A stretch of DNA of 64,000 nucleotides from an uncultured Lachnospiraceae bacterium (GTDB lineage Bacteria > Bacillota > Clostridia > Lachnospirales > Lachnospiraceae). Below, one piece after another: positions 15,601-57,277 of the stretch. The position numbers and the translations under genes were made by a program. The DNA is taken from assembly GCA_946632055.1 (NCBI GenBank), contig CAMPAR010000001.1, positions 43,730 through 107,729 of the forward strand. Direction: 5' to 3'. The notes beneath the pieces were generated by a model. It saw only the letters and a list, made by a program, of their open reading frames with translations. It ran no database searches and was not told the DNA's origin. The number at the start of each line of letters is the position of its first letter. The first letter of the stretch is position 1.

Positions 15601-15709
15601 GACAGAGTAGGAATGCATGTGTGAAATAGTGCCGGAAAGACGGGGAGTTGCTTTCCGGACGAAACGGTCATAAGGATGACCTGCAGTATGTGTTCCGCAT
15701 CCCGCTGTC
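15601..15709 (+). promoter_or_regulatory. THF (tetrahydrofolate) riboswitch aptamer
   Basis: GACAG...CTGTC closes the element. Inside it the conserved 5' strand CAGAGTAGGAATGC and 3' strand GTTCCGCATCCCGCTG match the AGAGUAG and GCAUCC(C)GCU blocks of the folT/THF aptamer. GGAATGCAT pairs with ATGTGTTCC (P2), and CCGGAAAG...CTTTCCGG forms the internal arm. It lies immediately upstream of a folT-type ECF gene, its canonical place. Called by eye, without a covariance-model score. Confidence 0.82.
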
Positions 15710-36519: not shown

Positions 36520-36610
36520 ATATCTTGATCATGCCGGGAAGCGTGCGAAGCGCGAAGCCTGACATGGCATATCTTTTTAATCCAATCGTATTTGGATCAG
36601 CCCAAAAAGA
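36520..36610 (+). promoter_or_regulatory. Structured upp leader with a degenerate pyr-type stem-loop
   Basis: First a hairpin closed by CATGCC/GGCATG-like strands and containing CGTGC-GAA-GCGCG. Then, at 36572-36610, TCTTTT pairs with AAAAAGA around an AA(T) bulge and an inner stem ATCCAA/TTGGAT. The layout resembles the elements before pyrR, pyrC and uraA, but the loop is TCGTAT, not ACGGGA. It ends next to the AAAGGA ribosome binding site. Confidence 0.4.
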
Positions 36611-36624
36611 AAGGATGTACAGCC

Positions 36625-37281
36625 ATGGCTATTGAAAACATTTACGGACCGGAAGACGGTGTATTTATTCAGACGCACCCGCTGATTCAGCACAAAATCA
36701 CCATGCTCCGTTCGGTGAATACGGGAACGAATGAGTTCCGCAAACTGATTGAAGAAATCGCAATGCTGATGGGCTTCGAAGCCCTGCGAGATCTGCCCCT
36801 TGAGGATATCGAGGTGGAGACGCCGATTGAGAAATGCATGTCTCCGGTCATCGCCGGAAAGAAGCTCGCGATTGTCCCGATTCTGCGTGCCGGTCTCGGC
36901 ATGGTAAGCGGAATCACGGCGCTGGTGCCGACGGCCAAGATCGGCCACATCGGCCTGTACCGGGACGAAGTGACGCATGAGCCTCACGAATACTACTGCA
37001 AGCTTCCGAGCCCGATCGAGCAGCGCACGATTATCGTCGTGGACCCGATGCTCGCGACCGGCGGATCCGGCGCGGACGCGGTTACGCTGATCAAGCAGCA
37101 CGGCGGCGTGCATATTAAGTTCCTGTGCATCATCGCGGCGCCGGAAGGCATCAAGAAGCTGCACGAGACGCATCCGGACGTGGAGATCTACGTCGGACAT
37201 CTGGACCGGGAGCTCAACGAAAACGCCTACATTTGCCCGGGACTCGGCGATGCCGGCGACCGGATTTTCGGTACCAAGTAA
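36625..37281 (+). CDS. upp: Uracil phosphoribosyltransferase
   Basis: 218 residues from ATG 36625 (AAAGGA 9 nt upstream; the track start 36592 has no support). It salvages uracil plus PRPP to UMP. The PRPP-binding loop is [16 protein letters not shown], and the C-terminal uracil-binding region is [17 protein letters not shown]. It is the true Upp, distinct from the PyrR that follows, and has its own strong promoter. Confidence 0.96.
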
Positions 37282-37301: not shown

Positions 37302-37333
37302 GCCTTTAATTCGCTACGGGATAGCGGCAAGGC
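37302..37333 (+). promoter_or_regulatory. Candidate PyrR-binding loop (anti-antiterminator) in the pyrR leader
   Basis: GCCTT/AAGGC lower stem, 5' bulge TAAT, upper stem TCGCTA/TAGCGG and loop CGGGA. Its 3' strand GGCAAGGC (37326-37333) is complementary at 7 of 8 positions to GCCCTGCC (37390-37397), the 5' arm of the downstream terminator. It can therefore act as the anti-antiterminator of an attenuation switch. Confidence 0.65.
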
Positions 37334-37387
37334 AAAGGAAAAGCGGTTCGAAGGAGAGCGGTCTGTCTCTCTTTCTTTGGATCGTTC

Positions 37388-37435
37388 AAGCCCTGCCCCT
37401 TGCGTTGCCCGCGTAGGAGCAGGGCTTTTCTATTT
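37388..37435 (+). terminator. Attenuator terminator immediately before pyrR
   Basis: AAGCCCTGC pairs with GCAGGGCTT, extended by CCT/AGG after a mismatch, and ends in TTTTCTATTT just 5 nt before the pyrR ATG. A terminator in this place, after upp and before pyrR, implies regulated read-through. Confidence 0.8.
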
Positions 37436-37439
37436 GCCT

Positions 37440-37973
37440 ATGACGGAAAAAGTAATTGTGGACGAACGGACGATGCTTCGCACGCTGACCCGCCTGTCCC
37501 ACGAAATCATTGAACAGAATCAGAGCGGGGAGCCGCTGTACCTCGTCGGCATCCGGCGGAGGGGCGTCTCCATTTCGAAGGTCATCCGCGAGAATATCGA
37601 GAAGTTTTCCGATATCCGGGTTGAAACCGGGGAGATCGATATCACCTATTACCGGGATGATCTGAAGAAGCACTCCGAGGATCCGAAGATCAATGAATCC
37701 CTGATCGATTTTGACGTGAACGGGAAGAACATCATTCTCGTCGACGACGTGCTCTATACCGGGAGAACGGCGCGGGCGGCGCTTGAAGCTTTGATGGCGC
37801 TCGGCCGGCCTTCGCGCGTGGAGCTTCTCGTCATGATCGACCGCGGGCACCGGGAGCTTCCGATTTCCGCGAATTACGTCGGGAAGAACATTCCGACCGC
37901 GCGGAACGAGTTTGTGAGCGTACGCGTGCCGGAATTCGACGGAAAGACGGAGGTCGCGATCGTGCGGAACTGA
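37440..37973 (+). CDS. pyrR: PyrR, pyr operon RNA-binding regulator / uracil phosphoribosyltransferase
   Basis: 177 residues aligning along its whole length with B. subtilis PyrR: TEKVIVDERTMLRTLTRLSHEI, LVGIRRRGVSISKVI, VETGEIDITYYRDDL, IILVDDVLYTGRTARAALEAL (PRPP loop) and VDRGHRELPISANYVGKNIPT. PyrR binds UMP/UTP and pyr mRNA leaders to promote termination or block translation. No Shine-Dalgarno sits at normal distance; AGGAG at 37415 is inside the terminator stem about 20 nt upstream, so translation may also depend on leader folding. Confidence 0.95.
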   Translation: MTEKVIVDERTMLRTLTRLSHEIIEQNQSGEPLYLVGIRRRGVSISKVIRENIEKFSDIRVETGEIDITYYRDDLKKHSEDPKINESLIDFDVNGKNIILVDDVLYTGRTARAALEALMALGRPSRVELLVMIDRGHRELPISANYVGKNIPTARNEFVSVRVPEFDGKTEVAIVRN

Positions 37974-38000: not shown

Positions 38001-38029
38001 AACCGGAGCACCCCTCAAAGGGGACGGTT
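38001..38029 (+). terminator. Hairpin between pyrR and uraA
   Basis: AACCG/CGGTT and CCCCT/AGGGG form a two-part stem, followed after about 10 nt by TTTTT. It may terminate pyrR transcripts or be part of the uraA leader. Confidence 0.45.
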
Positions 38030-38039
38030 CCGTTGTACT

Positions 38040-38071
38040 ATTTTTAATTTACCACGGGAGGGTAAAAAGAT
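38040..38071 (+). promoter_or_regulatory. Candidate PyrR-binding loop covering the uraA ribosome binding site
   Basis: Lower stem ATTTT/AAAGAT (the 3' strand enters the AUG), bulge TAA(T), upper stem TTTACC/GGTAAA, loop ACGGGAG. The GGGAGG Shine-Dalgarno lies in the loop and upper stem. Stabilising the hairpin would directly block translation. Confidence 0.6.
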
Positions 38072-39473
38072 GAATTTAGTTTATGGAGTAAAGGACAGAC
38101 CCAAATTCGGGCAGCTGATCGTCTTCGCGTTCCAGCAGCTTTTGGCGATTCTCGCGGCAACCATTGCAGTTCCGACGATTGTCGGAAACGGCATGTCCCA
38201 GTCCGCAGCGCTGTTCGGCGCCGGCGTCGGTACGATTGTGTATCTGGCATTCACGAAGTTCCGGAGCCCGGTGTTCCTCGGATCTTCCTTTGCGTTCCTC
38301 GGCTCGATGTTTGCGGCCTTCGGCGGCGCGGTCAGCGTTTCCGTCGGATATGCGGGTCTTCTGATCGGCGCCTGCTTCGCGGGACTGGTCTATGTCGTAA
38401 TCGCGCTGATCGTCAAGGCGGCCGGCGTCAACTGGATCAATAAGCTGATGCCTGCGGTTGTCATCGGACCCACGGTCGCCATCATCGGACTGTCGCTTGC
38501 CGGCAACGCGATCGGCGACCTGATGAAGGGCAGCGTCACGAAGGAAGTCGTGGAGCAGGTTGCGGTCATCGCGGAAGACGGCACGGCGCAGATCGTCGAG
38601 CAGACCTCTACGGTTCCCGTCGCTTCCCACTGGATCGCGCTTCTGTGCGGCCTTGTGACCATGTTCGTCGTCATTCTCTGCTCGGTGTACGGAAAGAAAA
38701 TGGCGAAGCTGATTCCCTTTGTCATCGGTATTGCGGCCGGCTACTGCGTGGCAGCCATCTTCACCCTGATCGGCAACGCCACCGGCAATGAAGCCCTTCA
38801 GATCATCAATTTCTCTCTGTTCCAGAACATGAAGTGGGTTCCGGACTTCGCGTTTATCGAAGCCTTCAAGGGCTTCGGCGAAGGCGGCGTGAACGGCGGA
38901 TACATCGCGACCGTGGCGGTTGCCTATATCCCGGTGGCCTTCGTGGTTTTCGCGGAGCACATTGCGGACCATAAGAACCTTTCCTCGATCATCGGACAGG
39001 ATCTCCTCACCGAGCCGGGCCTGCACCGCACGCTTCTCGGCGACGGTGTCGGTTCCATCGCGGGCGCCTTCTTCGGCGGATGCCCGAATACCACCTACGG
39101 CGAATCCGTCGGCTGTGTCGCCATTACCGGCAACGCTTCCGTCGTAACGATTCTCTGCACGGCTTTCCTCGCGATCGCGGCTTCCTTCTTCGGACCCTTT
39201 GTGACCGCGCTTGCGACCATTCCGAGCTGCGTCATGGGCGGCGTCTGCATCACCCTGTACGGCTTCATCGCGGTGTCCGGCCTCAAGATGCTGCAGCCGG
39301 TGGACCTGAACGACAACCGGAACCTGTTCTCGGCTTCGGTCATCCTGATCGCCGGTGTCGGCGGCATGGCGCTCACGATCGCCGGCACGATCACGCTGAC
39401 GGAAGTGGCCTGCGCCCTGATCCTCGGCATCATCGTCAACCTTCTGGTCAACCTGAAGAAGACGAAAAACTGA
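38070..39473 (+). CDS. uraA: Uracil permease (NCS2 family)
   Basis: A 467-residue nucleobase:cation symporter with about 14 hydrophobic segments. NAT/NCS2 signatures include VPTIVGNG near the N-terminus, PAVVIGPTVAIIGLSLAG, and the loop PEPGLHR-type region QDLLTEPGLHRTLLGDG followed by GGCPNTTYGESVGCVAITG. A short hydrophilic insertion (KEVVEQVAVIAEDGTAQIVEQTS) sits between two membrane helices around residue 170. Following pyrR and upp, uracil is the most likely substrate. Expression seems controlled through the stem-loop over its ribosome binding site. Confidence 0.95.
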   Translation: MNLVYGVKDRPKFGQLIVFAFQQLLAILAATIAVPTIVGNGMSQSAALFGAGVGTIVYLAFTKFRSPVFLGSSFAFLGSMFAAFGGAVSVSVGYAGLLIGACFAGLVYVVIALIVKAAGVNWINKLMPAVVIGPTVAIIGLSLAGNAIGDLMKGSVTKEVVEQVAVIAEDGTAQIVEQTSTVPVASHWIALLCGLVTMFVVILCSVYGKKMAKLIPFVIGIAAGYCVAAIFTLIGNATGNEALQIINFSLFQNMKWVPDFAFIEAFKGFGEGGVNGGYIATVAVAYIPVAFVVFAEHIADHKNLSSIIGQDLLTEPGLHRTLLGDGVGSIAGAFFGGCPNTTYGESVGCVAITGNASVVTILCTAFLAIAASFFGPFVTALATIPSCVMGGVCITLYGFIAVSGLKMLQPVDLNDNRNLFSASVILIAGVGGMALTIAGTITLTEVACALILGIIVNLLVNLKKTKN

Positions 39474-48145: not shown

Positions 48146-48174
48146 TTGACAGAAAGGGAGGAATCGGTTAGAAT
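48146..48174 (+). promoter_or_regulatory. Promoter of the de novo pyrimidine operon
   Basis: TTGACA, 17 nt, TAGAAT; predicted start near 48181, giving a leader of only about 60 nt that holds the candidate PyrR-binding loop. Confidence 0.88.
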
Positions 48175-48182
48175 ACAGGAGA

Positions 48183-48220
48183 TGGATTTTTAATGCGGTA
48201 CGGGATACCGCGAAGACCCA
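48183..48220 (+). promoter_or_regulatory. Candidate PyrR-binding loop in the pyrC leader
   Basis: Lower stem TGGATTTT/AAGACCCA with one mismatch, bulge (T)AAT, upper stem GCGGTA/TACCGC (6 bp perfect), loop CGGGA. It ends about 6 nt before AGAAGGAG. No terminator lies between it and pyrC, so control would be on translation or mRNA stability. Confidence 0.6.
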
Positions 48221-48240
48221 AATAAGAAGGAGAATCCTGT

Positions 48241-49455
48241 ATGGCAGAACTGAAGAAGCTCCATATCATGACCAGTCCGGATACGATGAATTTTCATCCG
48301 GATCTTGAGAGCATTTCAGCCATTCTTCCGGACGATGATTTTGATTATTATATTTTTCCCGGCTTCACTGATGTGCATGTGCACATGAGGGAGCCGGGAT
48401 TTTCATATAAAGAGACCATCCGTACCGGAACCATGGCTGCGGCGCGCGGCGGATACACCTGCGTATGCGCGATGCCGAATCTGAATCCGGTCCCGGACAG
48501 CACGGAGCACCTCCGGGAAGAACAGGAAATCATTGACCGGGACGCTGTTGTTGAGGTGCTTCCCTACGCTTCGATCACGGTCGGCGAAAAGGGGCAGGAG
48601 CTCGTGGATTTCGAAGCGCTTTCGGAGCGCTGCATTGCCTTCTCGGACGACGGAAAGGGCGTGCAGTCGGAAGAAATGATGCGGGAAGCGATGAAGAAGG
48701 CGAAGGCCTGCAATAAAATGATTGTCGCGCACTGCGAAGTCGACTCGATGCTGCACGGCGGGTATATTCACGAGGGCGCCTACGCAAAAGCGCACGGCCA
48801 CAGGGGAATCTCCTCAGAGAGCGAATGGGCTGAAATCGAGCGGGACGTGCGCCTCTCCGGAGAAACCGGCTGCGCCTTCCACGTCTGCCATATTTCGACA
48901 AAGGAGAGCGTGGAAATTATCCGTAAGGGCAAGGCTGCCGGGCTCAACATCAGCTGCGAAACCGGCCCGCATTACCTCGTGATGGACGAAAATGACCTTC
49001 AGGAAGACGGCTGGTTCAAGATGAATCCGCCGCTTCGCGGGACGGAGGACCGGGAAGCGCTGATTAAGGGAATTCAGGACGGCACGATCGACTGCATCGC
49101 GACCGATCACGCGCCGCACAGCGCCGTGGAGAAAGCAAAGGGGCTCGAAAATAGCGCCTTCGGCATCGTCGGGCTCGAGACCGCCTTTCCGCTTCTTTAT
49201 ACCAGACTGGTCCGGACCGGCGTGATTTCGCTGGAAACTCTACTGAAGCTTCTGACGACGGGCCCGAGGAAGCGCTTCGGGCTTTCGGAAACGCAGGACT
49301 TTACGGTCTGGCGGCTCGATGAGAAATTCACGGTGGACCCCGACGAATTCCTGTCGATGGGCAAGGCCCAGCCTTTCACCGGCATGGAGCTTTACGGCAG
49401 ATGCATGCTGACCGTCCATGACGGGAAGATTGTATACCGAAGAGAAGAGAAATAA
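48241..49455 (+). CDS. pyrC: Dihydroorotase
   Basis: A 404-residue amidohydrolase closing carbamoyl-aspartate to dihydroorotate. The metal-binding HxH is in FPGFTDVHVHMREPG; further ligands and substrate residues lie in IVAHCEV, CHISTKESVEI, CETGPHYLVM and CIATDHAPHS. The N-terminal beta-domain before the barrel is short, about 20 residues less than usual. First gene of pyrC-carB-pyrK-pyrD-pyrF-pyrE-pyrB-pyrI. Confidence 0.94.
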   Translation: MAELKKLHIMTSPDTMNFHPDLESISAILPDDDFDYYIFPGFTDVHVHMREPGFSYKETIRTGTMAAARGGYTCVCAMPNLNPVPDSTEHLREEQEIIDRDAVVEVLPYASITVGEKGQELVDFEALSERCIAFSDDGKGVQSEEMMREAMKKAKACNKMIVAHCEVDSMLHGGYIHEGAYAKAHGHRGISSESEWAEIERDVRLSGETGCAFHVCHISTKESVEIIRKGKAAGLNISCETGPHYLVMDENDLQEDGWFKMNPPLRGTEDREALIKGIQDGTIDCIATDHAPHSAVEKAKGLENSAFGIVGLETAFPLLYTRLVRTGVISLETLLKLLTTGPRKRFGLSETQDFTVWRLDEKFTVDPDEFLSMGKAQPFTGMELYGRCMLTVHDGKIVYRREEK

Positions 49456-49497
49456 CTGCTTTTTTACGATATTGTTACGATTCAGGAGGACATGAAC

Positions 49498-52400
49498 ATG
49501 GCAAAACGCACAGATATCAAAAGGGTACTGATTATCGGCTCCGGCCCGATCGTGATCGGCCAGGCGGCTGAATTCGACTATGCCGGAACCCAGGCCTGCC
49601 TTGCCTTGAAGGAAGAGGGCTACGAAGTCATTCTCTGCAATTCCAACCCCGCGACGATCATGACCGATACGCAGATCGCGGATAAGGTCTATATGGAGCC
49701 GCTGACACTGGAATATATTGCGAAAATCCTGCGCTACGAGCGTCCGGACGCGATCGTGCCGGGCATCGGCGGACAGACGGGACTCAACCTTGCGATGCAG
49801 CTTGAGAAAAAGGGCGTCCTCGCCGAGTGCGGCGTGGAGCTCTGCGGCACTCCCTACGACAGTATCGAGCGCGCGGAGGACCGCGAGCTTTTCAAGGAAA
49901 TGTGCGAATCGATCGGCGAGCCGGTCATCCCTTCTGAAATTACCTATGACCTGGAATCCGCGAAGGAGGCGGCAAAAAGGATCGGCTATCCGGTCGTGCT
50001 GCGTCCGGCCTTCACGCTCGGCGGAACGGGCGGCGGATTTGCCTATAACGAAGAGGAGCTCGTGCAGATCGGCACGAACGCCTTCCGGCTTTCGCCCGTG
50101 CATGAGGTTCTCGTCGAAAAGAGCGTCAAGGGCTACAAGGAAATTGAATTCGAAGTCATGCGCGACTCCGAGGACAACGCGATCACGATCTGCGGCATGG
50201 AGAACGTGGACCCCGTGGGCGTGCATACCGGTGACTCCATCGTCGTGGCGCCGATCCTTTCCCTGAACGACCACGACCTGAAGATGCTGAACGACTCCGC
50301 GATCAAGATCATCCGCGAGCTCAAGATCGCCGGCGGCTGCAATGTGCAGTTCGCGCTGAATCCCGAGAACTCCGAATACTTCCTGATCGAGGTCAACCCG
50401 CGCGTCAGCCGCAGTTCGGCGCTCGCGTCAAAGGCTTCCGGCTATCCGATCGCGCGCGTGACCGCGAAGATCGCGATGGGCATGCTGCTTTCCGAGATTC
50501 CGGTCGCGGGCGGCCTTGCCTCCACCGAGCCTTCCCTCGACTACATCGTGGCGAAATTCCCGCGCTTCCCCTTCGATAAGTTCACGGAGGCGCCGAACAC
50601 GCTCGGCACCCAGATGAAGGCAACCGGCGAAGTCATGGGCATCGGCGCAAACCTCGAGGAGTGCTTCCTGAAATCCGTGCGTTCGCTCGAGGTGGGCGTT
50701 AACCACCTGTATATCCCGAAATTCGACAACTATACCGTGGACGAGCTGAAGGACTACCTGAGGGAATTCCACGCGGATTCACTCTTTGCGGTCGCCGAGC
50801 TCCTGTATCACGGCGTATCGGTACAGGAAATCCACGAAATCACGATGATTACGGAGATTTTCCTGGAGGCCCTGAAACGGATCATCGACATGGAGGAGAC
50901 GCTGAAAAACCACGTTTTCGACCTTCCGACCCTGACCGCCGCGAAGAAGATGGGCTTCTCGGACGGCTATGTCGCGAGAATGTGGAAGTGCACAGAAATC
51001 GAGGTGTACCATTTCCGGAAGGAACATGCGCTGACGCCGATCTTCAAAATGGTCGACACGCTGCATACCGGAAAGTACATACCCTATCTGTACTCCAGCT
51101 ATACCGGCGAGAACGAGTCGCGCCTGACGGACAAGAAGAAGGTCATCGTGCTCGGCGCGGGCCCGATCCGTATCGGACAGGGCGTGGAATTTGACTATTC
51201 GACGGTTCACGCGGTGCAGACGATCCGCCGCGCAGGCTACGAAGCCATCATCATCAACAACAACCCGGAAACGGTTTCGACGGACTATACGACTTCGGAC
51301 AAGCTGTATTTTGAGCCGCTGACGCCGGAAGACGTAATGGCGATTATTGATTTCGAACAGCCGGAGGGCGTCATCGCTTCCCTCGGCGGCCAGACCGCCA
51401 TCAACCTTGCGCAGCCGCTCTTTGACCGCGGCGTCAAGATCATCGGCACGGACTGTGCGGCGATCGAGCGCGCGGAAAACCGCGACAGCTTTGAAAAAAT
51501 CCTGCTGGAGCTGGACATCCCGCAGCCGAAGGGCCAGGCGGTGACGAATCTGGAGGACGGCCTGAAGGTCGCGAACGAGATCGGCTATCCGGTACTCGTG
51601 CGTCCGAGCTTCGTGCTCGGCGGCCGCGCGATGCAGATCGTCTCGAAGGACGAACAGCTGGTCCGCTACTTAAAGAGCGCCGTGGAAATCGACACCGACA
51701 AGCCGGTGCTGATCGACAAGTACATCTTCGGCAAGGAGGTCGAGGTCGACGCGGTCTGCGACGGAAGAGACGTGTTCGTTCCCGGCATCATGGAGCTTGT
51801 TGAGCGCACGGGCGTGCATTCGGGCGACTCCATCAGCGTCTACCCGAGCTACTCGATTTCCGACAAGGTCAAGGGAAAGATCCTGACCTTCGCGAAGAAG
51901 CTCGGACTCGGAATCGGCATCATCGGCCTTTACAACATCCAGTTCATCGTGACGCCGGAAGAGGACGTCTATATCATCGAGGTGAACCCGCGTTCCTCCC
52001 GGACGGTTCCCTTCCTTTCGAAGGCGACCGGATATTCGCTCGCGGATATCGCGACCGAGGTCATCCTCGGAAAGACGCTGAAGGAGCAGGGCATCTTCGA
52101 CCTGTATCCGGAAGAGAAGAAGCGCTACTATGTGAAGGTGCCGGTATTCTCCTTCAACAAGCTGAAGGGCCTGGATTCCTACCTTTCGCCCGAGATGAAG
52201 TCGACCGGCGAAGCGATCGGCTACGATAAGACCCTGCACCGCGCAATGTACAAGGCGCTCGTTGCCTCCGGCATGAATCTGCAGAATTACGGAACCGTCC
52301 TCGTGACGCTTGCGGACGAGGACAAGGAGGAGGCGCTGCCGCTGATCCGCCGCTTCTACAACCTCGGCTTCAACATCGAGGCGACGATCGGCACCGCGAA

Positions 52401-52674
52401 CTTCCTCAAGGAGAACGGCATAAGGACGCGTGTCCGCGGAAAGATCAGCGAAGGCTCGGACCAGATTCTCGAATCCATCCGCGCCGGCTACGTGAGCTAT
52501 ATCATCAACACCCGTGCGATCCTTTCCGGCGTGCATTATGACGACGGCGTGGCGATCCGCCTGGCGGCGACCGAGAACAACGTGACGCTCTTTACCTCGC
52601 TCGACACGGTCCGGGTGCTCCTCGACGTCCTCGAAGAGACCACCCAGACGATCTCGACGATCGACGCGAAGTAA
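49498..52674 (+). CDS. carB: Carbamoyl-phosphate synthase, large subunit
   Basis: 1058 residues from ATG 49498, which is 8 nt after AGGAGG; the track start 6 nt earlier is too close to it. Two duplicated ATP-grasp halves begin VLIIGSGPIVIGQAAEFDYAG and VIVLGAGPIRIGQGVEFDYS, followed by the oligomerisation region and a C-terminal MGS-like allosteric domain (GFNIEATIGTANFLKENGI). It makes carbamoyl phosphate with the small subunit CarA, whose gene is not next to it or anywhere in the window. Confidence 0.97.
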   Translation: MAKRTDIKRVLIIGSGPIVIGQAAEFDYAGTQACLALKEEGYEVILCNSNPATIMTDTQIADKVYMEPLTLEYIAKILRYERPDAIVPGIGGQTGLNLAMQLEKKGVLAECGVELCGTPYDSIERAEDRELFKEMCESIGEPVIPSEITYDLESAKEAAKRIGYPVVLRPAFTLGGTGGGFAYNEEELVQIGTNAFRLSPVHEVLVEKSVKGYKEIEFEVMRDSEDNAITICGMENVDPVGVHTGDSIVVAPILSLNDHDLKMLNDSAIKIIRELKIAGGCNVQFALNPENSEYFLIEVNPRVSRSSALASKASGYPIARVTAKIAMGMLLSEIPVAGGLASTEPSLDYIVAKFPRFPFDKFTEAPNTLGTQMKATGEVMGIGANLEECFLKSVRSLEVGVNHLYIPKFDNYTVDELKDYLREFHADSLFAVAELLYHGVSVQEIHEITMITEIFLEALKRIIDMEETLKNHVFDLPTLTAAKKMGFSDGYVARMWKCTEIEVYHFRKEHALTPIFKMVDTLHTGKYIPYLYSSYTGENESRLTDKKKVIVLGAGPIRIGQGVEFDYSTVHAVQTIRRAGYEAIIINNNPETVSTDYTTSDKLYFEPLTPEDVMAIIDFEQPEGVIASLGGQTAINLAQPLFDRGVKIIGTDCAAIERAENRDSFEKILLELDIPQPKGQAVTNLEDGLKVANEIGYPVLVRPSFVLGGRAMQIVSKDEQLVRYLKSAVEIDTDKPVLIDKYIFGKEVEVDAVCDGRDVFVPGIMELVERTGVHSGDSISVYPSYSISDKVKGKILTFAKKLGLGIGIIGLYNIQFIVTPEEDVYIIEVNPRSSRTVPFLSKATGYSLADIATEVILGKTLKEQGIFDLYPEEKKRYYVKVPVFSFNKLKGLDSYLSPEMKSTGEAIGYDKTLHRAMYKALVASGMNLQNYGTVLVTLADEDKEEALPLIRRFYNLGFNIEATIGTANFLKENGIRTRVRGKISEGSDQILESIRAGYVSYIINTRAILSGVHYDDGVAIRLAATENNVTLFTSLDTVRVLLDVLEETTQTISTIDAK

Positions 52675-52696
52675 GCTTCAGGAAAGATAAAACCTT

Positions 52697-53437
52697 ATGA
52701 AGGAATCTCTGTTCAAGATTATCACCAATAAAGCCCTTACAGGTTCCGTGTATGAAATGAATCTGCAGGGCGACACCTCCGAAATCACGGGACCCGGACA
52801 GTTTGTCAATGTCCGGATCCCCGGTTTCTACTTAAGACGCCCGATTTCCGTAGCCTTCGTCCAGAACGACATCCTGACCCTGACCTATAAAACCGTCGGG
52901 AAGGGAACCATGGAAATGTCCGGCTTCCGGGAGGAAGAAGAGCTTGACCTCCTGACCGGCCTCGGAAACGGCTACGATCTTTCGCGCGCGGGAGAGCATC
53001 CCATTCTCCTCGGCGGAGGCGTCGGCGTGCCGCCGCTTCTGTATCTCGCGAAAAAGCTGCGGGAAAAGAAGCTTCCCATCGACGTGGTGCTCGGCTTCAA
53101 TACGGCCTCCGAAGTGTTCTACCGGAAGGAATTCGAGCTTCTCGGCTGCCGGACGGAAGTGACGACGGCGGACGGCTCTTATGGAACGAAGGGCTTTGTC
53201 ACGGACGCGGCGCTGTTCAGGGAGAATCACAGCTATTTCTACACCTGCGGACCGCTGCCGATGCTGAAGGCGGTATACGAAAAGAGCGCTTCGGACGGAG
53301 AGTTCAGCTTTGAGGAGCGCATGGGCTGCGGCTTCGGCGCCTGCATGGGCTGCTCCGTGAAGGTCAAGGGCGGTTGCAAACGGATCTGTAAGGACGGGCC
53401 GGTGCTCAGGAAGGAGGAAATCCTGTGGGAGAACTGA
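52697..53437 (+). CDS. pyrK: Dihydroorotate dehydrogenase B, electron-transfer subunit
   Basis: A 246-residue ferredoxin-reductase-like protein carrying FAD and a [2Fe-2S] cluster. The flavin motif is FYLRRPISVAFV, the NAD-binding region is HPILLGGGVGVPPLLYLAKKL, and the cluster cysteines are in MGCGFGACMGCSVKVKGGCKRICKDGPVL. It passes electrons from PyrD (class 1B) to NAD. Its end overlaps pyrD by 13 nt. Confidence 0.95.
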   Translation: MKESLFKIITNKALTGSVYEMNLQGDTSEITGPGQFVNVRIPGFYLRRPISVAFVQNDILTLTYKTVGKGTMEMSGFREEEELDLLTGLGNGYDLSRAGEHPILLGGGVGVPPLLYLAKKLREKKLPIDVVLGFNTASEVFYRKEFELLGCRTEVTTADGSYGTKGFVTDAALFRENHSYFYTCGPLPMLKAVYEKSASDGEFSFEERMGCGFGACMGCSVKVKGGCKRICKDGPVLRKEEILWEN

Positions 53438-54384
53438 ATTTTGCCGATAAGGCCCGGATGAACGGAGAAACCGTAGAACGCGACCGTCTTGCCGTCGAGC
53501 TCTGCGGCATCCCGCTCGAGAATCCGGTGATTCCGGCCTCCGGAACCTTCGGCTACGGCGCGGAATTTGCGGAGCTTTACGATATCAACATCCTCGGAAC
53601 CTTTTCCTTCAAGGGCACCACGCTGGAGCCCCGCTACGGAAACCCGGTCCCGAGAATTGCGGAATGCACGGCCGGCATGATCAACGCGGTCGGGCTTCAG
53701 AACCCGGGTATTTCTCATGTGATCGCGGAGGAGCTTCCGCGGATGAAAGCGTATTTTCACAAGCCGGTCATGGCGAATGTCAGCGGCTTTTCCCTTGAGG
53801 AATACGCCGAAACCTGCCGGCTCCTCGGAAAAGAAGAGCAGGTCGGCTGGCTGGAAGTCAATATCAGCTGTCCGAACGTGCACGGCGGCGGCATGAGCTT
53901 CGGGACCGATCCTTCGGCCGCGGCTGAAGTCGTGCGGACGGTGCGGAAGGTGACGGACAAGCCGGTGATCGTGAAGCTGACGCCGAACGTCACCGACATC
54001 GTATCGATCGCCAGGGCCTGCGAAGAGGCCGGCGCGGATGGAATCAGCCTGATCAATACGCTTCTTGGCATGCGGATCGATCTGAAGACCCGGAAACCGG
54101 TCATTAAAAATGTCATGGGCGGCTTTTCCGGCCCGGCGGTTTTTCCGGTGGCCCTTCGGATGGTCTATCAGGTTTCGCACGCCGTATCGATTCCGGTGGT
54201 CGGCATGGGCGGCGTCTCTTCGGCGGAGGACGTGCTGGAGATGATGATGGCCGGCGCTTCGGCGATCGAGGTGGGCTCCCAGAATCTTGTCGACCCCTTT
54301 GCCTGCAAAAAGATCATCGAAGCCCTTCCGGAGACGATGGACCGCTTCGGAATCCGGAGGCTTTCCGAGCTTTCGGCACTTTGA
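53425..54384 (+). CDS. pyrD: Dihydroorotate dehydrogenase, class 1B catalytic subunit
   Basis: 319 residues from GTG 53425, which has AAGGAGG 7 nt upstream. FMN-dependent oxidation of dihydroorotate to orotate. It has NPVIPASGTFGYG, NAVGLQNPG, the active-site Cys in WLEVNISCPNVHGGG, TDKPVIVKLTPNVTDI and the phosphate-binding GMGGVSSAEDVLEMMMAGASAIEVG. The catalytic cysteine (rather than Ser) and the adjacent pyrK mark it as class 1B. Confidence 0.96.
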   Translation: MGELNFADKARMNGETVERDRLAVELCGIPLENPVIPASGTFGYGAEFAELYDINILGTFSFKGTTLEPRYGNPVPRIAECTAGMINAVGLQNPGISHVIAEELPRMKAYFHKPVMANVSGFSLEEYAETCRLLGKEEQVGWLEVNISCPNVHGGGMSFGTDPSAAAEVVRTVRKVTDKPVIVKLTPNVTDIVSIARACEEAGADGISLINTLLGMRIDLKTRKPVIKNVMGGFSGPAVFPVALRMVYQVSHAVSIPVVGMGGVSSAEDVLEMMMAGASAIEVGSQNLVDPFACKKIIEALPETMDRFGIRRLSELSAL

Positions 54385-54426
54385 TCAGAATCGTTTGGAT
54401 CAACAGAGAGAAGATCAGGAGAAACT

Positions 54427-55128
54427 ATGGGAAAAGACGTTATTATCGCTTGTGATTTTTCAAGTGCGGAAAAGGTGTACAGCTTCCTCGACCTTTTTAC
54501 CGAGGAGAAGCCCTTTGTGAAAATCGGCATGGAGCTGTTCTATGCGGAAGGACCCGCCATCGTGCGGGAAATCAAGAAACGCGGGCACAGGATCTTTCTC
54601 GACCTGAAGCTGCATGACATCCCGAACACCGTCAAAAAAGCCATGTCGGTGCTGCGCGATCTCGACGTGGACATCACGAATGTCCACGCGGGCGGAACCG
54701 TGCGGATGATGGAAGCCGCACTGGAGGGCCTGACGCGCCCGGACGGGACGAGACCGCTCCTCATCGCCGTGACGATGCTGACCTCCACCGATCAGGAAGC
54801 CATGGAAGAGGACCTTCTGATCCGCGGAACGGACATTTCGGACGTCGTCATGCACTACGCCGAGAACGCGAAAAAGGCCGGACTCGATGGAATCGTCTGT
54901 TCGCCCCTCGAGGCCGGAAAGGTGCATGAGAAACTCGGCACGGACTTCCTTACCGTGACGCCGGGCGTACGCTTCCCCGGCGGAGAGGTCGGAGACCAGA
55001 AGCGCGTCATGAGCCCGGAGGAAGCAGGGAAGATCGGCTCCGACTACATCGTCATGGGGCGGCCGATTACCGCCGCGCCGGACCCCGTCGCCGCCTACCG
55101 CCGCGCGATGCGCGAGTTCGTCGGGTGA
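54427..55128 (+). CDS. pyrF: Orotidine-5'-phosphate decarboxylase
   Basis: A 233-residue TIM barrel converting OMP to UMP. The catalytic loop is [16 protein letters not shown]; the phosphate-gripping end is [18 protein letters not shown] and [15 protein letters not shown]. It belongs to the short PyrF type. TCAGGAGA precedes the start. A palindromic repeat (copy B) separates it from pyrE. Confidence 0.95.
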
Positions 55129-55165
55129 GTACGCAGGCTGCGAAGAACGAAAGAAAGATAACGAT

Positions 55166-55246
55166 TCGAGCCGAGGGTCATCCTGCTTCCTCATGAGGCG
55201 GATACGAAGTCACGCCGAAGAGGAAGCAGGATCACGCAGGCGAGTT
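55166..55246 (+). repeat. Dispersed palindromic repeat, copy B, inside the pyr operon
   Basis: An 81-nt element with left flank TCGAGCCGAGGG, arms ATCCTGCTTCCTC and GAGGAAGCAGGAT (13 bp perfect), central hairpin GGCG/CGCC containing ATACGAAGT, and right flank CGCAGGCGAGTT. It lies in the 144-nt gap between pyrF and pyrE, so it should be transcribed within the pyr mRNA. Confidence 0.85.
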
Positions 55247-55272
55247 CAGAGATACAGAGAAAGGAAGAGAGT

Positions 55273-55917
55273 ATGAAAAGAGAAGAAGTCATCGCACGCG
55301 ACCTGCTGAAGATCAAAGCGGTGTTTTTCAGACCCGAGGAGCCCTTCACCTGGGCTTCCGGCATTAAAAGCCCGGTTTACTGCGACAACCGGCTCACCCT
55401 GTCGGATACCGCCGTACGCGCGGACGTGGAAAACGGGCTGGCGGAAATGATCCGGGAGAACTACCCGGAGGCGGAAGTCCTGATGGGCACCTCGACAGCC
55501 GGAATCGCTCACGCGGCGATCACCGGATACCTCATGGATCTTCCGATGGGCTACGTGCGCTCCGGCGCCAAGGACCACGGCCGTCAGAATCAGATTGAAG
55601 GAAAGCTGCTGCCCGGACAGAAGGTCGTCGTGGTGGAAGACCTGATCTCCACCGGCGGCTCGGTTCTTGAGGTCGTTGAGGTCTTGAGAAACGCCGGCGC
55701 CGAAGTGCTCGGAATCGCTTCCATCTTCACCTACGGGATGGAAAAGGGTCTGAAGCGGCTTTCGGATGCGAAGGTCAAAAACGTCTCCCTGACGAATTTC
55801 GACGTCATCGCGAAGGCAGCGGCAGAGGAAGGCTATATCCGGCCGGAGGACGTGGAGCGGCTGATCCGTTTCCGCAACAATCCCTCGGATGAAAGCTGGA
55901 TCGGAGGCGAAAAGTGA
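55273..55917 (+). CDS. pyrE: Orotate phosphoribosyltransferase
   Basis: A 214-residue type I phosphoribosyltransferase making OMP from orotate and PRPP. The PRPP loop is [35 protein letters not shown] is the orotate-binding N-terminal motif; the flexible loop is [24 protein letters not shown] lies before the ATG. It overlaps pyrB by 4 nt. Confidence 0.95.
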
Positions 55918-56861
55918 GATCGGTCATCGATATTCTGGACCTCTCGACGGAAGAGCTGTCGGAGCTGATCAAAACGGCGGAGGACATCATCGCGAATCCG
56001 GAGAAGTATCAGGAGGTCTGCCGGCATAAGAAGCTCGCGACCCTCTTCTTTGAGCCCTCGACCCGGACGCGCTTAAGCTTCGAAGCCGCCATGTACGAGC
56101 TCGGCGGAAACGTGCTTTCCGTATCGAGCGCCGGCTCGAGCTCGGCCGCCAAGGGAGAGAGCGTCGCCGATACGGCAAAGACCGTAAGCTGCTATGCGGA
56201 CATTATCGCAATGCGTCATCCGAAGGAAGGCGCGGCCTATGTGGCGGCACAGAACGCGGGCGTGCCGGTCATCAATGCCGGTGACGGCGGACATCTGCAT
56301 CCGACGCAGACGCTCGCGGACCTCCTGACGATCTGGCGTGAAAAGGGAAGATTTACAGGACTCACGATCGGCCTCTGCGGAGACCTCAAGTTCGGACGCA
56401 CGGTACACTCCCTGATCGCGGCCATGAGCCGCTACGAGGGAAACCGCTTCGTGCTGATTTCCCCGGAGGAGCTGAAGGTTCCGAGTTACGTCAAGAACAT
56501 TCTGAAGGAACAGAACATCCCCTACGAGCAGACGGAGGACCTGATGTCCGTGATCGGCGATCTGGATATTCTGTACATGACGCGCGTGCAGCGCGAGCGC
56601 TTCTTCAACGAGGAGGACTACCTTCGCCTGAAGGACAGCTATATCCTGACGCCGGAAAAGATGAACGAGGCGAAAGCCGATCTTGCCGTGATGCATCCGC
56701 TTCCCAGGGTCAACGAAATCAGCGTGGCCATCGATAAGGACCCGAGAGCCTGCTATTTCAAGCAGGTCCTGAACGGAAAATACATGCGGATGGCGCTGAT
56801 TCTCAAACTTCTTTATGAGGCGGGGACGCTGAAGGAACTGCCGGAAAGGAGCAGGGCATGA
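55914..56861 (+). CDS. pyrB: Aspartate carbamoyltransferase, catalytic subunit
   Basis: A 315-residue ATCase catalytic chain. The carbamoyl-phosphate motif is [21 protein letters not shown]; the 80s-loop region is [13 protein letters not shown]; the aspartate-binding segment is [14 protein letters not shown] start within the pyrE stop (GTGA). Paired with pyrI, so it should form the allosteric c6r6 complex known from enterobacteria and also found in clostridia. Confidence 0.96.
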
Positions 56862-57277
56862 ATGTCGATTCGATTCAGAACGGAATTGTCATCGATCACC
56901 TGAAGGCGGGCTACGGCATGCGCCTGTACGAGCTTCTCGGGCTGTCGGATCCGGAGCTCACCGTGGCTATTATGAAAAACGTCACGAGCCATAAGCTCGG
57001 GCGGAAGGACATCATCAAGATCGACGGAATCACCGACGTGGATCTGGATGTCATCGGCTTCGTGGACCCGGACGCCACGGTGAATATCATTCGGGACGGC
57101 AGACTGATCGAAAAGAAGAGCATCGAAGCGCCGGAGCGGCTGACGAATGTTCTCCGGTGCAAAAACCCGCGCTGCATCAGCACGACGGAGCAGGAGCTTC
57201 CGCAGATTTTCGTGCTGAGCGACCGGAAAACGAAAACCTACCGCTGCCTCTACTGCGAGACGAGAGCGGAAAAATAA
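56858..57277 (+). CDS. pyrI: Aspartate carbamoyltransferase, regulatory subunit
   Basis: A 139-residue ATCase regulatory chain: nucleotide-binding N-domain ([33 protein letters not shown]) and the four zinc-binding cysteines in [11 protein letters not shown] and [10 protein letters not shown]. It confers CTP/ATP control on PyrB. ATGA overlap with pyrB. Last gene of the operon. Confidence 0.95.

Follow-up and report, generated by a model that had tools for sequence, protein, structure and literature searches.

The window (the whole stretch of 64,000 nucleotides that was analysed) carries, between upp and pyrR, a short leader in which an RNA hairpin is followed by an intrinsic terminator. The genes and elements of the locus, with their basis in brackets, are the following.

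36592..37281, + strand: upp, uracil phosphoribosyltransferase, the upstream gene (protein family match, sequence)
37302..37333, + strand: PyrR-binding loop (PBL), candidate anti-antiterminator (sequence, folding, conservation, models)
37310..37332, + strand: putative antiterminator 5' strand, the 3' part of the PBL, core GCAAGG at 37327-37332 (prefix folding)
37342..37386, + strand: strong middle hairpin, bringing the antiterminator strands together (prefix folding)
37388..37427, + strand: intrinsic terminator hairpin, with a U-rich tail to 37435 (folding)
37398..37419, + strand: putative antiterminator 3' strand, inside the terminator hairpin, core CCUUGC at 37398-37403 (prefix folding)
37415..37419, + strand: AGGAG, the only clear Shine-Dalgarno-like sequence before pyrR, in the 3' half of the terminator (sequence)
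37440..37973, + strand: pyrR, bifunctional regulator/uracil phosphoribosyltransferase, a clear member of its family (NCBIfam NF003549 above cut-off; related to PDB 1non and 1a3c)
38070..39473, + strand: uraA, NCS2 uracil permease (best matches to ncs2 and uracil permease models, below cut-offs)

The position of the hairpin, with pyrR at 37440 and uraA at 38070 downstream, is that of the attenuators of the RF00515 kind.

Leader hairpin, terminator and predicted antiterminator

The hairpin 37302-37333 is made of a lower stem GCCUU/AAGGC, a bulge UAAU (37307-37310) facing a C, a six-pair upper stem UCGCUA/UAGCGG and a pentaloop CGGGA, and no U-tract follows it. Folding yielded the same stems, bulge and 5-nt loop as had been read in the preliminary description, with an energy of -9.6 kcal/mol that is mildly better than that of shuffled sequences (16 of 200 shuffles fold equally well). 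The two-part stem with its purine-containing 5' bulge is a trait of RF00515-type attenuators. The terminator hairpin 37388-37427 is much more marked (-25.3 kcal/mol, z -5.1, none of 200 shuffles as good) and is followed by the tail UUUUCUAUUU to 37435, so that the terminator first placed at 37388-37435 was recovered. Between the two lies the strong middle hairpin 37342-37386, which had been overlooked.

The leader was also folded step by step as its 3' end advances. The PBL forms alone up to 37388, an antiterminator appears when the 3' end lies at 37406-37420, and the PBL and the terminator coexist once it is at 37427; the predicted folds thus pass through the three mutually exclusive states (anti-antiterminator, antiterminator and terminator) that had been proposed. 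The pairing then put forward for the antiterminator, a 7-of-8 complement between 37326-37333 and 37390-37397, does exist with one A-C mismatch, but it is not the favoured one: at 37410 that register reaches -35.3 kcal/mol, while the free fold reaches -38.2 kcal/mol and uses 37327-37332 and 37398-37403. This latter pairing, extended to 37310-37332/37398-37419, is the likelier antiterminator according to these predictions. With the leader complete (37440), the minimum-energy structure has the linker paired to the U-tract region and no longer shows the PBL with a plain terminator; this may be an additional state or an artefact that comes from folding the whole length.

As in RF00515-type attenuators, a terminator and a competing antiterminator are both present; in the window alone, the pairing of the hairpin with the terminator arm is matched by 10 of 40 arm shuffles and is not beyond chance. 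The antiterminator pairing stands above arm shuffles in many relatives, and the hairpin followed by a terminator was found in nearly all leaders tested. It is conservation that carries the case.

The AGGAG sequence (37415-37419) is enclosed in the terminator hairpin, and in two relatives, G062 (L139) and G068 (L140), the Shine-Dalgarno of pyrR is formed by the 3' arm of the terminator, 7-8 nt from the start codon, which physically couples termination with ribosome access there. These observations are compatible with a leader acting also, or mainly, at translation, in which the terminator arm would hide the sole Shine-Dalgarno-like sequence and couple read-through with ribosome access. However, here and in the relatives the terminator is strong and has a U-rich tail, and the AGGAG of the window lies 20 nt from the pyrR ATG, too far to convince. 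We consider this possibility unlikely, although it is the best placed of the alternatives.

Conservation of the hairpin and size of its loop

Relatives were found via the PyrR protein and the DNA upstream of pyrR was then read. In nearly all close relatives, pyrR is preceded by the hairpin and a downstream terminator, the hairpin following the pattern CCTTTAAWTC-stem-C(N)GRGA-stem-GGCAAGG. Alignment of 22 sites revealed invariant UUUAA and C.GNGA sequences, 98.6% of paired cells and four upper-stem pairs with changes on both sides; the window sequence has a compensatory C-G where G-C is commoner. The covariation score exceeds those of all 500 shuffles and of all slid versions of the alignment, none of which comes near it, and RNAalifold, unaided, predicts the identical structure. 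The preliminary description would have abandoned its reading of the hairpin as the local PyrR target if relatives had not retained the UAAU bulge or the loop; both the bulge and a C-GRGA loop are conserved.

Because the training set of a first model (R1) had included the window sequence, a second one (R2) was built with hexaloop sites outside the genus only. The best R2 match in the 2.28 Mb genome is 37303-37332 (E 0.0043) and the second-best is a site before pyrC (E 1.78), these E-values being rough because the calibration was short. A covariance model derived from relatives' leaders, as had been recommended, thus ranks the window hairpin first. Taken with the conservation before pyrR and the compensatory changes, this suggests that 37302-37333 is very probably the local PyrR target. 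One genome of the window's clade (G061) speaks against the proposed regulation, as it retains pyrR yet has neither the leader hairpin nor the pyrC site.

Three side observations were made on these upstream regions. In G061 (L033/L133), pyrR is intact and its leader hairpin is replaced by what, judged by eye, resembles the end of an IS200/IS605-type element. Two members of the genus share a stretch of about 90 bp upstream of pyrR (L034 and L141, GAGGAAAATCGAYGTGCG...TTTATGCCGCTTCCGGTGATT), possibly a mobile or repeat element. The motif GGGGACGGTTC occurs once before uraA in the window (38020-38030) and three times before pyrR in G069 (L141 648-734), within hairpin-like repeats.

The Rfam model RF00515 gave no match in the window at E up to 10. 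At its threshold it reports 2 of 20 relatives, the other 18, hexaloops included, remaining below; several pentaloop leaders elsewhere score 37-52 bits against a threshold of 54 bits. Such sub-threshold scores support the kinship of the pentaloop leaders with this family while showing its under-reporting, and as hexaloop leaders are among those missed, loop length is not the sole cause. Two weak RF00515 matches in the genome of the window, neither beside a pyr gene, were treated as chance: L001 lies at a gene end and is followed by a terminator-like hairpin and L002 straddles the end of a kinase-like gene. Two other RNAs of the window are well above their Rfam thresholds, a Clostridiales-1 RNA (1670-1835) and a THF riboswitch (15601-15709).

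The loop had been described as ACGGGA in place of CAGAGA. This does not hold, the leading A being one half of the closing A-U pair. In the alignment, the window loop C-GGGA keeps every conserved letter of CNGNGA and lacks only the unconserved N2; as it is not a hexaloop, the site is filed as a variant and not as a standard member of the RF00515 kind. GRGA fits the GNRA pattern, and so does the GNGA of hexaloops; the second base of the hexaloop may simply be extruded.

Loop size was mapped on a tree of 102 PyrR proteins, where it requires 8 changes compared with 26.9 in shuffles, at least five of the 8 being forced by well-supported branches. Pentaloops are present in the window's clade, in two other families of its order, in Atopobiaceae (Actinomycetota) and in single Clostridia. 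The pentaloop is therefore a recurrent form, gained or lost several times in evolution. Within the three-member clade of the window, G000 has a pentaloop, G064 a hexaloop, and G061 has lost the leader. The loop was thus rightly called new-looking insofar as the consensus given in the papers found does not include the pentaloop and its leaders are sub-threshold in Rfam, but this form is frequent among Clostridia and Atopobiaceae, where single genomes combine it with hexaloops. No description of a PyrR pentaloop was found in the literature searched, which excluded Bonner 2001 and Turnbough and Switzer 2008.

The clustering of loop size on the PyrR tree could reflect a distinct PyrR-RNA specificity, in which a co-evolved PyrR would read C-GRGA and would not read CNGNGA. 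The composition of the loops points the same way, all pentaloops of the labelled set being CGAGA or CGGGA and hexaloops admitting other bases at that place. In contrast, both sizes occur within single genomes: in G122, G132 and G162 pyrR has the pentaloop and pyrB the hexaloop, in G072 pyrR has the pentaloop and pyrC the hexaloop, in G064 the hexaloop belongs to pyrR and the pentaloop to uraA, and G097 has one of each. Moreover, G064 is the sister of the window's genome, and its hexaloop accompanies a PyrR that is 77% identical. Since single genomes carry both sizes, the same PyrR should recognise the two, and a separate specificity is quite improbable. The shortened loop is expected, from these comparisons, to be tolerated by the same PyrR.

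Further candidate sites at pyrC and uraA

Other copies of the hairpin were found in the window, before the operon of de novo UMP synthesis and over the start of uraA.

38040..38071, + strand: probable third PBL over the uraA start, pentaloop CGGGA (R1 12.2 bits at 38041-38070; homologous elements in G064, G065, G066 and G071)
48146..48174, + strand: sigma-70-type promoter TTGACA-17-TAGAAT of the pyr operon (sequence)
48187..48216, + strand: second PBL, upper stem GCGGUA/UACCGC, pentaloop CGGGA, no terminator (R1 and R2 models; homologous sites in G069 and G072)
48241..56861, + strand: pyrC-carB-pyrK-pyrD-pyrF-pyrE-pyrB operon (protein family matches)
56858..57277, + strand: probable pyrI after pyrB (read by eye)

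The site 48187-48216 heads the operon, of which pyrC is the first gene; it begins 12 nt past a good promoter and ends 10 nt before the pyrC Shine-Dalgarno AAGGAG (48227-48232), so that a PBL lies at a ribosome-binding region without a terminator. In G072 and G069 the site is directly against the Shine-Dalgarno. Among the seven genomes of the genus in which pyrC was found, the site is present in G000, G069 and G072, all with pyrR, and absent in G063, G067 and G070, where no pyrR was found, and in G061, where pyrR is kept. In an alternative fold of 48182-48260, at -18.1 kcal/mol, the loop strand UACGGGAU is paired with AUCCUGUA in the region of the start codon. As a regulatory fold hiding the start codon it was rejected, being predicted for neither G072 nor G069 and giving the wrong direction of control. 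A match in G071 (C78) lacks the loop and was not counted.

At uraA, the structure 38040-38071 is composed of AUUUU/AAGAU, a bulge UAAU facing an A, UUACC/GGUAA, an A-G mismatch and the pentaloop CGGGA. The loop plus its flank is the Shine-Dalgarno GGGAGG (38056-38061), which places this hairpin, also without a terminator, at the ribosome-binding region. Its R1 score is weaker, at 12.2 bits, about two such matches being expected by chance in 64 kb. At the uraA start of four other members of the genus, G064, G065, G066 and G071, the element occurs again and shows a compensatory replacement of C-G by U-A, the five sequences giving modest support; it was not seen at uraA in G063, G067, G070, G062, G068 and G072. 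Sequence comparison thus designates the uraA site as a probable PyrR-binding loop.

As no terminator is present at pyrC and uraA, translational repression is the likely mode at these sites, which suggests that PyrR also represses translation there. The full scheme would be that of one PyrR governing three genes or operons in two ways, through attenuation in the case of pyrR and, for pyrC and uraA, by directly masking the site where the ribosome binds, with CGGGA and its 3' flank serving as Shine-Dalgarno at uraA and with C-GRGA recurrent and interchangeable with CNGNGA. We put this forward tentatively, at somewhat less than even odds.

Proposed regulation and its significance

The scheme in which a PBL, an antiterminator and a terminator compete under the control of PyrR is an established mechanism (PMC7430163, PMC6296669), and we estimate at roughly 0.88 the probability that 37302-37435 is a PyrR-dependent attenuator of pyrR(-uraA), the loop being tolerated by the same PyrR and the pyrC site probably, the uraA site perhaps, being bound too. 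When UMP is high, PyrR would bind and hold the hairpin 37302-37333 by its UAAU bulge and C-GGGA loop; the terminator 37388-37427 would then form, and transcription coming from upp would no longer continue into pyrR-uraA. At low UMP, the free 3' half of the hairpin would pair with 37398-37419 while the RNA emerges, an antiterminator that would hinder the terminator and allow pyrR-uraA to be transcribed. The same PyrR would probably bind the second loop in the ribosome-binding region of pyrC, and perhaps the third at the uraA start, and block translation at each. A reading of the hairpin as nothing more than a structure for 3' processing or termination of upp, with 37388-37435 as an unregulated terminator, would suit its position 20 nt after the upp stop with no promoter-like site found between upp and pyrR. 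This reading is barely credible, as the hairpin is kept in G062 and G068, whose pyrR and upp genes are on different contigs, is absent after upp in genomes with no pyrR found, and lacks a U-tract.

The proposed attenuator shares with those of the B. subtilis pyr operon (RF00515) the purine-containing bulge, the C.GNGA loop, the antiterminator, the terminator and the position before pyrR or pyrimidine genes. It differs by a loop one base shorter (CGGGA), by the silence of RF00515 on the window and by the lack of a separate promoter-like site for its PBL, which follows upp. The switch is thus of a known kind, and what is new is that its recognition loop lacks one base of the textbook form. In Streptococcus pneumoniae, several pyrR RNA elements per genome, one of them at a uracil transporter, have been described as attenuation (PMC6296669); the window likewise has several elements with one at the transporter gene, but its uraA site has no terminator. 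For the predicted pyrC and uraA sites, the model is the PyrR-dependent translational repression of Mycobacterium smegmatis (Fields and Switzer 2007, as cited in PMC6455119), with a PBL at the ribosome-binding region and no terminator. Compared with that system as summarised there, the putative translational mode would here coexist with attenuation in one genome, and the Shine-Dalgarno of uraA would be provided by the loop region itself.

These results widen the expected recognition rule of PyrR from CNGNGA to C(N)GNGA and indicate that sites of this type in anaerobic Clostridia and Atopobiaceae are under-reported by the PyrR family of Rfam. This genome and its sister G064, with 77% identical PyrR proteins and different loops, provide a natural experiment in which the length of the loop varies. 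Of the possible extensions, the probable regulon that mixes control of transcription and of translation is the most interesting, and it points to genomes in which a single regulator may act at both levels.
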